Source of the DNA: Geomonas ferrireducens
GTDB taxonomy: Bacteria > Desulfobacterota > Desulfuromonadia > Geobacterales > Geobacteraceae
Length of the DNA stretch: 64,000 nucleotides
Reading direction: 5' to 3'
Assembly (NCBI RefSeq): GCF_004917065.1
Contig: NZ_SSYA01000001.1
Span: 1,072,550-1,136,549, forward strand
The number at the start of each line of letters is the position of its first letter. Position 1 is the stretch's first letter. The notes beneath the pieces are model-generated. The model saw nothing but the letters and a program-made list of their open reading frames with translations, searched no databases and was not told where the DNA came from. Below, one piece after another: positions 5,573-7,370 of the stretch. The position numbers were made by a program, and so were the translations under genes.

Positions 5573-6103
5573 CTAAAGTCCCGCCCGCCAGAAATAGAAA
5601 CCCGCTGCACCGCCGTAGAGCAGCACCCCCGCAGGATTGGAAAGGGCAACCCGCACATCCTGCCCCGACGGAATCGAGCTGTAACTGAAAACGTAAATGG
5701 CGACGTACATAAGCAGGGTGTGCGGCAGGTCCGCGGGAAACCACGTGTTCCACCCAAGATACAGATAATAAGCGACCACGTTCAGCAAAAGCGGCGCAAG
5801 CGCCGAGGGTAGCGCGGAAATGGCCCCGGCGTTGCTGATGGTCACCGAACCCAGCACCCAGCGCCCCTCGCCTTCCCGCCGCGGGATAATGCTGAACCCC
5901 ACGGGCCTCCCACCGGTGACCGTGGCCACCACCAGGTGGGAAAGCTCATGCAGCAGCGTCCCCGGAAGGGCCCAGCAGATCTGCCATAGGGCTCCCGCCC
6001 TCCCGACCCGCGCCTGCAACACCGCCATCGCTATCACGAGCAGGACCCCGGCAAAGTGATGCCAACGCTCCGGGTCGCCCGCCACCTCCATGATGCCGCC
6101 CAT
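5573..6103 (-). CDS. M50-like integral membrane metalloprotease homologue
   Basis: A 176-residue, highly hydrophobic protein with about four or five membrane segments. PGTLLHELSHLV at about residues 47-58 contains an HExxH zinc-binding motif inside a membrane helix, as in site-2-protease and M50 families. A second metal ligand (NPDG-like) is not obvious; SNPAGVLLYGG near the end could be a degenerate version. GGAGGGGTGAG immediately precedes the start, and a second ATG four codons in is an alternative start. The substrate is unknown; the family often cleaves membrane proteins, but short members like this may only resemble proteases. Confidence 0.7.
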   Translation of the reverse strand: MGGIMEVAGDPERWHHFAGVLLVIAMAVLQARVGRAGALWQICWALPGTLLHELSHLVVATVTGGRPVGFSIIPRREGEGRWVLGSVTISNAGAISALPSALAPLLLNVVAYYLYLGWNTWFPADLPHTLLMYVAIYVFSYSSIPSGQDVRVALSNPAGVLLYGGAAGFYFWRAGL

Positions 6104-6173: not shown

Positions 6174-6201
6174 TTGCCATTCATACCCAGTCTGCTATGT
6201 T
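6174..6201 (+). promoter_or_regulatory. Probable sigma-70 promoter of the peroxiredoxin gene
   Basis: TTGCCA (6174-6179), a 16-base spacer and TATGTT (6196-6201), 37 bases upstream of the start codon. Confidence 0.55.
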
Positions 6202-6238
6202 TAACCAGCTAATGAGAACCACATCCAAGGAGGCAGGC

Positions 6239-6712
6239 ATGTCACTAGAAGGCCAGAAGGCGCCGGATTTCAGGCTCCAAGGGAGCGACGGGAAGGAACA
6301 TTCGCTGAAGGATTACGCGGGGAAACTCGTGGTGCTCTTCTTCTACCCCAAAGACAACACCCCCGGCTGAACCGCTGAAGCGGTCGGCTTTGCGAAGCTG
6401 CAGCCGCTTTTCCTCCAGTTGGGGGTCGTGTTGGTCGGTATTTCCAAGGATTCCCTGAAGTCGCACGAGAAGTTCGTCGCCGACTTCAAGCTCCCGTTCA
6501 CCCTACTCTCCGACCCGGACGCGTCGGTGATGAAGGCATACGGCGCCTTCGGTGAGAAGGTTCAGTACGGCAAGACCACTATGGGGGTGATCCGCTCCAC
6601 GGTGGTGCTCGCGCCTGAGGGAACCGTGATCAGGCACTGGACCAAGATCGCGAAGGCCTCTGAACACCCTGACAAGGTGCTCGATTTCTTCAAGATGCTG
6701 GCAAAAGGCTGA
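6239..6712 (+). CDS. bcp: Peroxiredoxin of the Bcp/PrxQ family, probable selenoprotein (Sec44 encoded by TGA)
   Basis: From ATG 6239 (AAGGAGG at good spacing) the frame runs to TGA at 6712, giving 157 residues, the usual Bcp length, if the in-frame TGA at 6368-6370 is read through. That codon falls exactly at the peroxidatic cysteine: YPKDNTPG-[TGA]-TAEA, where homologues have PGCT. Sequence on both sides is intact family sequence (GKLVVLFFYPKD before, GVVLVGISKDS and LPFTLLSDPD after). A hairpin at 6378-6409 fits a bacterial SECIS. The enzyme would reduce peroxides using selenocysteine at position 44. Position 49, often the resolving Cys, is Val, so it would act as a one-Sec enzyme. The alternative, a nonsense mutation, looks unlikely. 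Confidence 0.88.
6378..6409 (+). promoter_or_regulatory. Candidate bacterial SECIS element
   Basis: AAGCGG pairs with CCGCTT, and inside that GGCTT pairs with AAGCT around the loop TGCG. The loop starts 21 bases after the TGA and has G as its second base. This fits what is known of bacterial SECIS hairpins (short stem-loop 16-37 bases after UGA, with a G early in the loop). Confidence 0.6.
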
Positions 6713-6726
6713 ACCTGGACGATAAA

Positions 6727-6754
6727 AGGGGCGAAGACGGAAGTCTTCGCCCCT
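6727..6754. terminator. Terminator-like hairpin after the peroxiredoxin gene
   Basis: AGGGGCGAAGAC pairs perfectly with GTCTTCGCCCCT around a 4-base loop. There is no long T run, so termination may be weak or the hairpin may mainly protect the 3-prime end. Confidence 0.55.
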
Positions 6755-6798: not shown

Positions 6799-7170
6799 TC
6801 AGTCCACGTAGTTGTAGTTGGTTTCCGAATCCAGGATCTTCACCAGTGACTCTGCCGTGTACGGGAACTCTGTCTGTGCCTCCTCAACCTTTCTGTCAGG
6901 CGGCGGCGTCCAGTGCAACACCCACTCTCCGTCACGCTGTTCCCTCGTCACCCGCCCGCGGCATCTTGCTTCAAGAGTGCGCCACATCTCATCCTCGTTG
7001 ATCAACTCGAATCCGCCGATGTTTTCGCTCTCTTTCAGGTTCTGCAGGAATCGGTCAAGCAGGTCGAAATCGATGAAATCCTCCTCATTGCGCCACCACT
7101 TGATGAATACCATGTCGGGGTGAGCGTTCTTCGCATCTCTGATCTCTTTTACCAGCTGGTATCCTTTCAT
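6799..7170 (-). CDS. Hypothetical protein, 123 residues
   Basis: A soluble, acidic protein without signal peptide or membrane segment. I do not recognise the family. Visible features: MVFIKWWRNEEDFIDFDLLDRFL near the N-terminus with predicted helices, a Trp-rich stretch (GEWVLHWTPPPDRK) and an acidic C-terminus. ATG 7170 is preferred because GGAGGAGG lies 5 bases before it; an in-frame GTG two codons upstream sits on that ribosome site. Codon use matches the neighbours, so it is probably a real gene. It converges with the peroxiredoxin gene. Confidence 0.7.
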   Translation of the reverse strand: MKGYQLVKEIRDAKNAHPDMVFIKWWRNEEDFIDFDLLDRFLQNLKESENIGGFELINEDEMWRTLEARCRGRVTREQRDGEWVLHWTPPPDRKVEEAQTEFPYTAESLVKILDSETNYNYVD

Positions 7171-7370
7171 GGCCACCTCCTCCCGGCTGTCATTAACAGC
7201 CTCCTCCTGCCTGTTTACCGCCTATTAAATAGTACCCCCAGCGATATTTTTCCGCAACTAAAGGGCTTTTGGACGACACGCATCCGTGCCCTCGTGAAAC
7301 CTGCTTGAATTTCTGCAAATAGTGGATACACCTTATGAGGTTAACATGCCCTAACCGCGGGGGATACATC

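Follow-up and report, generated by a model that had tools for sequence, protein, structure and literature searches.

A predicted selenocysteine-containing PrxQ/Bcp peroxiredoxin without a second cysteine in Geomonas ferrireducens

The window, i.e. the complete 64,000-nucleotide stretch of Geomonas ferrireducens DNA that was analysed, contains a peroxiredoxin-like reading frame with a TGA codon in its interior. The locus thereby raises the question of whether this codon is read as selenocysteine (Sec) in a full-length enzyme, is translated as a different residue, or marks a broken or shorter gene.

Reading frame, protein family and fold

With the TGA read through, positions 6239-6712 of the plus strand encode 157 residues. 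The sole internal TGA is codon 44 (6368-6370), and neither a further stop nor a frameshift is found in the frame. The gene and the elements around it are as follows.

6174..6201, plus strand: sigma-70-like promoter match TTGCCA-16-TATGTT, a consensus match only
6227..6233, plus strand: Shine-Dalgarno sequence AAGGAGG, 5 nt before ATG 6239, read directly
6239..6712, plus strand: PrxQ/Bcp peroxiredoxin coding sequence, 157 aa, residue 44 predicted to be Sec, final TGA as stop
6368..6370, plus strand: in-frame UGA at the peroxidatic position; the predicted Sec reading is based on aligned Cys codons in the order and the Sec machinery of the genome
6377..6410, plus strand: mRNA hairpin resembling a SECIS element; its apical loop, UGCG, occupies 6391-6394, and the loop G follows the UGA at a distance of 22 nt
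6727..6754, plus strand: G+C-rich hairpin just past the stop, possible terminator without T run, read directly

The context of the UGA is YPKDNTPG-U-TAEAV, the place of the family's peroxidatic Cys. The preliminary description had regarded the family sequence as intact on both sides and the length as normal. This was confirmed by a Pfam AhpC-TSA match (6.6e-38) spanning residues 5-131, and thus both sides of the TGA, by a match to Xanthomonas PrxQ/Bcp over residues 10-156 (5.8e-34) and by the total of 157 residues. The top NCBIfam model is PrxQ with 3.3e-45 and 153.7 bits, below its equivalog cut-off of 260. Following the motif definition in passages of PMC5302317, the PxxxTxx(C/U) loop and the conserved Arg are present with P37, T41, residue 44 and R119. 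In 35 aligned sequences, with U represented by C, residue 44 is invariant, as are P37 and R119, and T41 is conserved in at least 90%.

An AlphaFold model based on 35 related sequences, with Cys modelled for Sec, reached a pLDDT of 94.1 and a pTM of 0.89. In the PDB, the model is closest to BCP/PrxQ chains, the first of them being BCP 9a4d_B (an integrative model) with a TM score of 0.94. Normalised by query length, TM scores of 0.90, 0.87 and 0.83 were obtained for Burkholderia 5enu and for Xanthomonas PrxQ 5iiz and 5iox, respectively.

The mechanical list of open reading frames gives for this frame a 97-aa ORF from TTG 6419 and nothing else, just as had been predicted. Gene finders likely truncate the annotation of such genes by reading the UGA as a stop, and the full-length frame corrects this.

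The flanking minus-strand genes at 5573-6103 and 6799-7176 were matched in 20 and 16 of 30 loci, respectively (the window's included). In 18 of the 19 loci of the genus the upstream neighbour adjoins the gene; the one remaining locus lies at the end of a contig. Judged by the flanking genes, the genes of the genus represent the same locus. Promoter matches on both strands between 5400 and 7400 amount to 2, with 0.5 expected. At 6727..6754, Rfam matched a hairpin family below its threshold (18.5 of 43 bits), and the terminator scan did not report this hairpin. The predicted protein of 5573-6103 (minus strand) contains HELSH, which we take to be a HExxH-like zinc protease motif.

Codon 44 among relatives and the reading of the UGA

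The order was sampled with 141 genomes, 109 of which gave a match. The resulting 110 rows were reduced to 109 after removal of a fragment without the site (G043). The codon aligned with codon 44 is TGC in 80, TGT in 18 and TGA in 11 of these sequences, and no other codon occurs. The proposed position of TGA 6368 at the peroxidatic Cys of Bcp/PrxQ proteins is thus borne out by a Cys codon in 98 of 109 sequences. Within the genus (n=19), TGA is found in three genomes (G000, G017, G019), whose proteins are at least 97% identical, and TGC in 16. Sec and Cys forms of the genus share 73-85% protein identity and the same place, and are otherwise orthologous. The mere presence of a TGA inside a match was rejected as a sign of Sec: G052, G053 and G101 show one TGA, yet their peroxidatic codon encodes Cys.

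Pairwise comparison of the three UGA species revealed 17, 15 and 12 synonymous versus 2, 3 and 3 non-synonymous changes after the TGA, corresponding to dS/dN values of 0.247/0.008, 0.211/0.012 and 0.165/0.012. Since synonymous changes far outnumber non-synonymous ones, the part after the TGA is selected as protein. For residues 45-60, i.e. the 16 codons from the TGA to TTG 6419, the same pairs show 3, 3 and 0 synonymous and no non-synonymous changes, and the N-terminal 43 codons are likewise conserved as protein. These substitution patterns indicate strong purifying selection both before and after the TGA in the three species.

The genome of the window (4.8 Mb in 14 contigs, listed as 100% complete) encodes the complete Sec machinery. 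Matches above the curated cut-offs were obtained for selA (3e-183, 609.9 bits), selB (2.7e-118, 395.9 bits), selD (2.7e-107, 359.2 bits) and tRNA-Sec (74.9 bits), which ARAGORN names tRNA-SeC with the anticodon TCA (UCA). In the order, selB is present in 34 of 37 checked genomes, the misses being G005, G126 and G132 with 70, 85 and 53% completeness. It is found in eight of the ten genomes with a UGA form, G005 (70%) and G126 (85%) again being the misses. Four other genes of the window's genome carry an in-frame TGA at a redox residue:

same genome: SelD, TGA-containing, AAG-U-AAKLG
same genome: thioredoxin, TGA-containing, WAPW-U-PHC
same genome: glutaredoxin, TGA-containing, GSG-U-SYC
same genome: Prx-like thiol:disulfide oxidoreductase, TGA-containing, RGIW-U-PYC

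In passages of PMC1794560, the selenoproteins of Geobacter sulfurreducens include the SelD, Trx, Grx and Prx-like families.

The preliminary description had named a lack of selA, selB, selC and selD, or close Cys relatives together with decay of this copy, as findings that would speak against Sec. All four genes are present, selC in the form of the tRNA-Sec with UCA anticodon. Cys relatives do exist in 16 of 19 genus genomes; this copy shows no decay, as the frame has full length and the TGA occurs in three species under purifying selection. The selenoprotein interpretation is therefore supported.

Three other readings have to be weighed. A pseudogene or sequencing error, in which a Cys codon was mutated or misread and the gene broken, could arise by a single base exchange from the TGC that 16 of the 19 genus genomes carry at codon 44. 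The same TGA, however, is found in three separate genomes, with 12-17 synonymous against 2-3 non-synonymous changes behind it, which makes a chance TGA very unlikely. Additionally, the frame contains no other stop or frameshift, and UGA stands at the same position in eight further sequences of the order and in 118 listed stretches from GTDB. We consider a broken gene highly improbable. Little more can be said for an internal start at TTG 6419, giving a short 97-residue protein, or for a frame used as two pieces: the TTG ORF is the only one listed mechanically for this frame, but codons 1-43 and 45-60 are conserved as protein and a strong Shine-Dalgarno sequence precedes ATG 6239. Because the loop with P37, T41 and residue 44 is missing in the short form, it could not be such a peroxidase, and there is scarcely any probability left for this explanation.

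Low-level reading of UGA by near-cognate tRNAs is known in bacteria, and in principle Trp, Cys or Arg could be incorporated instead of Sec. Against this stand the full Sec machinery of the genome, the observation that the alternative residue at this place within the order is always Cys, and the four further genes of the same genome (SelD, Trx, Grx, Prx-like) whose TGA likewise falls on an established Sec position. A near-cognate reading is thus extremely improbable. The gene very probably encodes a genuine selenoprotein. It is close to certain, in our view, that it belongs to the PrxQ/Bcp-family peroxidases and that SelB and tRNA-Sec, presumably aided by the hairpin just 3' of the codon, would insert Sec at UGA 6368.

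The hairpin at 6377-6410 has a fold energy of -17.1 kcal/mol. As criterion for a bacterial SECIS we applied a loop of 3-14, a G in the first two places and a distance of 16-37 nt from the UGA. An equally good qualifying hairpin was obtained in 2, 2 and 0 of 60 synonymous recodings for the three UGA species (window: 2 of 60), and in 5 to 32 of 60 for the other eight UGA forms of the order. Mean hairpin z values in the order are -0.77 for the 11 UGA forms, -0.29 for the 27 Cys forms without and -0.13 for the 71 with a Cys five residues after the peroxidatic position (+5 Cys). For 116 UGA forms from the listed GTDB matches a mean of -0.82 was found, two of 118 sequences being left out because the stretch ended too soon. 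Against dinucleotide shuffles the window hairpin is unremarkable (z -0.67), an equally good fold being reached by 55 of 200, and a similar fold is formed by some Cys-encoding members of the genus (L038, L042). Rfam gave nothing over cut-off at the hairpin; the single match over the site (12.3 of 46.7 bits, E 3.3) is no better than chance. We regard the SECIS-like hairpin as supportive of the Sec reading only.

A restrictive pattern scan of GTDB genomes, in which the TGA is at the peroxidatic place by construction of the pattern, revealed at least 119 stretches, and 118 of the 119 listed match the window protein by BLASTP. Among 80 record titles of these listed matches, Acidobacteria, Actinobacteria, Chloroflexi, Gemmatimonadetes, Planctomycetes and Neomarinimicrobiota are represented; loci L138, L212 and L245 repeat genomes present in other samples. 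Judged by the GTDB matches listed (L137-L255), Sec-PrxQ is common and, according to these 80 titles, occurs in many phyla.

Resolving cysteine and Sec/Cys exchange

The window protein contains no Cys at all. A check for the 2-Cys type of PrxQ revealed no resolving Cys in the 157 residues, neither at +5, where V49 is found, nor at the counterpart of Xanthomonas C84, which is occupied by V80. Since no other Cys is available, the protein would be a one-selenol enzyme, and with Val at both places no intramolecular bond can be formed. Fold, PxxxTxxC loop and size are shared with the Cys-PrxQ/Bcp proteins of Xanthomonas campestris (5iiz, 5iox) and Burkholderia (5enu), which differ in the use of Cys instead of the predicted Sec as well as in these two positions. 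The preliminary description had overlooked the absence of the resolving Cys; the protein thus differs from an ordinary 2-Cys PrxQ by more than the exchange of S for Se. This lack of a second Cys to complete the reaction is the less ordinary feature of the gene.

In the order, the +5 Cys occurs in 71 of 98 Cys forms and is absent in all 11 UGA forms. The 27 Cys forms without it are located in clades of the tree that also hold UGA forms. All 19 genus proteins lack the +5 Cys, and of the 16 Cys forms, 12 contain a single Cys. On the order tree, the +5 Cys requires three changes, at least two of them on well supported branches, and the Sec label five. The search was extended to the phylum with a query that itself lacks the resolving Cys, giving 133 match rows (9 in the order, 100 taken, 24 left out). 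Among the 100 further rows, the +5 Cys is absent in 25 of 25 UGA forms and present in 49 of 75 Cys forms. The ratio of 25 to 75 must not be read as a frequency because below E 1.1e-26 only TGA rows, eight in number, were taken. For the whole phylum sample, absence of the +5 Cys amounts to 36 of 36 UGA forms versus 53 of 173 Cys forms.

A rule that Sec forms have no resolving Cys had to be rejected, since 37 of the 118 UGA forms among the listed GTDB matches keep the +5 Cys and the tree-corrected pair test was not significant. The latter comprised eight independent pairs on supported branches; averaged over random pairings, 2.2 pairs favoured the rule and 5.8 were ties, none contradicted it, and the median p was 0.5. 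Of the 81 listed GTDB UGA forms without +5 Cys, 31 have a Cys elsewhere after Sec.

A three-state Markov model was fitted from a small number of optimiser starts to one quick tree of 209 rows, which was rooted at its midpoint and based on biased sampling. With all rates free, lnL was -101.01. When the change from Sec to Cys was barred among forms lacking the +5 Cys, lnL dropped to -105.12, and barring Cys to Sec there gave -105.39. As the likelihood decreases without either direction, the model favours a two-way exchange; in proteins without the +5 Cys, Sec and Cys appear to replace each other in either direction. With direct steps between the Sec and +5-Cys states barred, lnL was -101.67, and it was -101.85 when loss of the +5 Cys was allowed only together with Sec gain. 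Neither order of events, +5 Cys loss or Sec gain first, was favoured, and the model gives no direction for the clade of the window. For peroxiredoxins, Table 1 of PMC1794560, as far as its passages go, lists five Cys-to-Sec events and no Sec-to-Cys event, in contrast to the model, which favours some of the latter. That the genus inherited one ancestral Sec and later lost it in part is a possible history, given five Sec changes on the order tree and a model without direction here.

The following broader picture is, in our estimate, rather unlikely to hold as a whole. In the phylum of Geobacter, PrxQ might switch reversibly between Sec and Cys, provided that the resolving Cys has first been lost; one-thiol PrxQ would toggle both ways, and the Sec form would pass its oxidising equivalent to a Sec-glutaredoxin or Sec-thioredoxin of the same cell, amounting to tandem selenium use in peroxide removal.

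Known relatives, proposed reaction and reductant

As the preliminary description had pointed out, Bcp-type selenoproteins are already known. TxxU Sec-peroxiredoxins are presented as an established bacterial selenoprotein family in passages of Zhang et al. 2006 (PMC1794560) and of a 2026 review (PMC13188914), and a 2016 survey reports, in the part consulted, 91 Sec-peroxiredoxin proteins from 78 organisms (PMC5029168). What had been missed is that passages of PMC1794560 already list a Sec-peroxiredoxin for a Geobacter, namely a 'peroxiredoxin' selenoprotein of Geobacter metallireducens, the Prx subfamily not being stated in these passages. Like the published TxxU proteins, as far as these sources describe them, the window protein has the AhpC/TSA fold and the predicted Sec at the peroxidatic position, and no difference in kind was found. 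The gene thus very probably adds a member to a known class. Its added value lies in the one-selenol state and in the contrast between Sec and Cys within one genus. The term 'resolving' is absent from the passages of PMC1794560 and occurs once, for MsrA, in those of PMC13188914. Searching the open-access literature by title or abstract start, we found neither a link between Sec and loss of the resolving Cys in PrxQ nor a paper on PrxU as a selenoprotein.

Two cases from other families resemble parts of this picture. According to passages of PMC4479559, the Sec-MsrA of Clostridium oremlandii, a 1-Cys-type enzyme, contains no Cys and is regenerated by glutaredoxin, not by thioredoxin. It is likewise a Sec enzyme without any Cys, but belongs to an unrelated enzyme family, and the analogy concerns the way of working only. 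For animal Sec-GPx it was proposed that Sec made the resolving Cys dispensable, which was then lost (passages of PMC8614756). This is a different, eukaryotic family.

In the proposed reaction, Arg119 together with P37 and T41 of the PxxxTxx(U) loop would hold the selenolate of Sec44, which would reduce hydrogen peroxide or an alkyl hydroperoxide and thereby become a selenenic acid; activity and substrate are assigned by family membership. Since the protein has no Cys at all, the selenenic acid would have to be resolved by an outside thiol, i.e. thioredoxin, glutaredoxin or a small thiol. The TGA-containing glutaredoxin and thioredoxin of the same genome are our guess as candidate reductants. 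Three Sec and 16 Cys species with the gene at the same place in one genus represent a natural experiment, and therefore the benefit of Sec for an anaerobe's peroxidase, as well as the replacement of the resolving Cys, becomes directly testable.

A glutaredoxin match containing a TGA was found in 3 of 3 Sec-PrxQ genomes of the genus versus 5 of 16 Cys-PrxQ genomes, and in the genus g27 in 2 of 5 versus 5 of 9; these counts refer to a TGA inside the match, its position being inspected in the window's genome only. The first pair of figures hints weakly at a link between Sec-PrxQ and Sec-glutaredoxin, which those of g27 do not support.

Two minor observations were made on UGA forms of the order. 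In g27 (L061-L066), Ile directly follows the UGA in all six UGA forms, and Thr is found at this place in its nine Cys forms. G126, an assembly with 85% completeness and 5% contamination, carries two different UGA-type PrxQ genes (L062, L064) on separate contigs.
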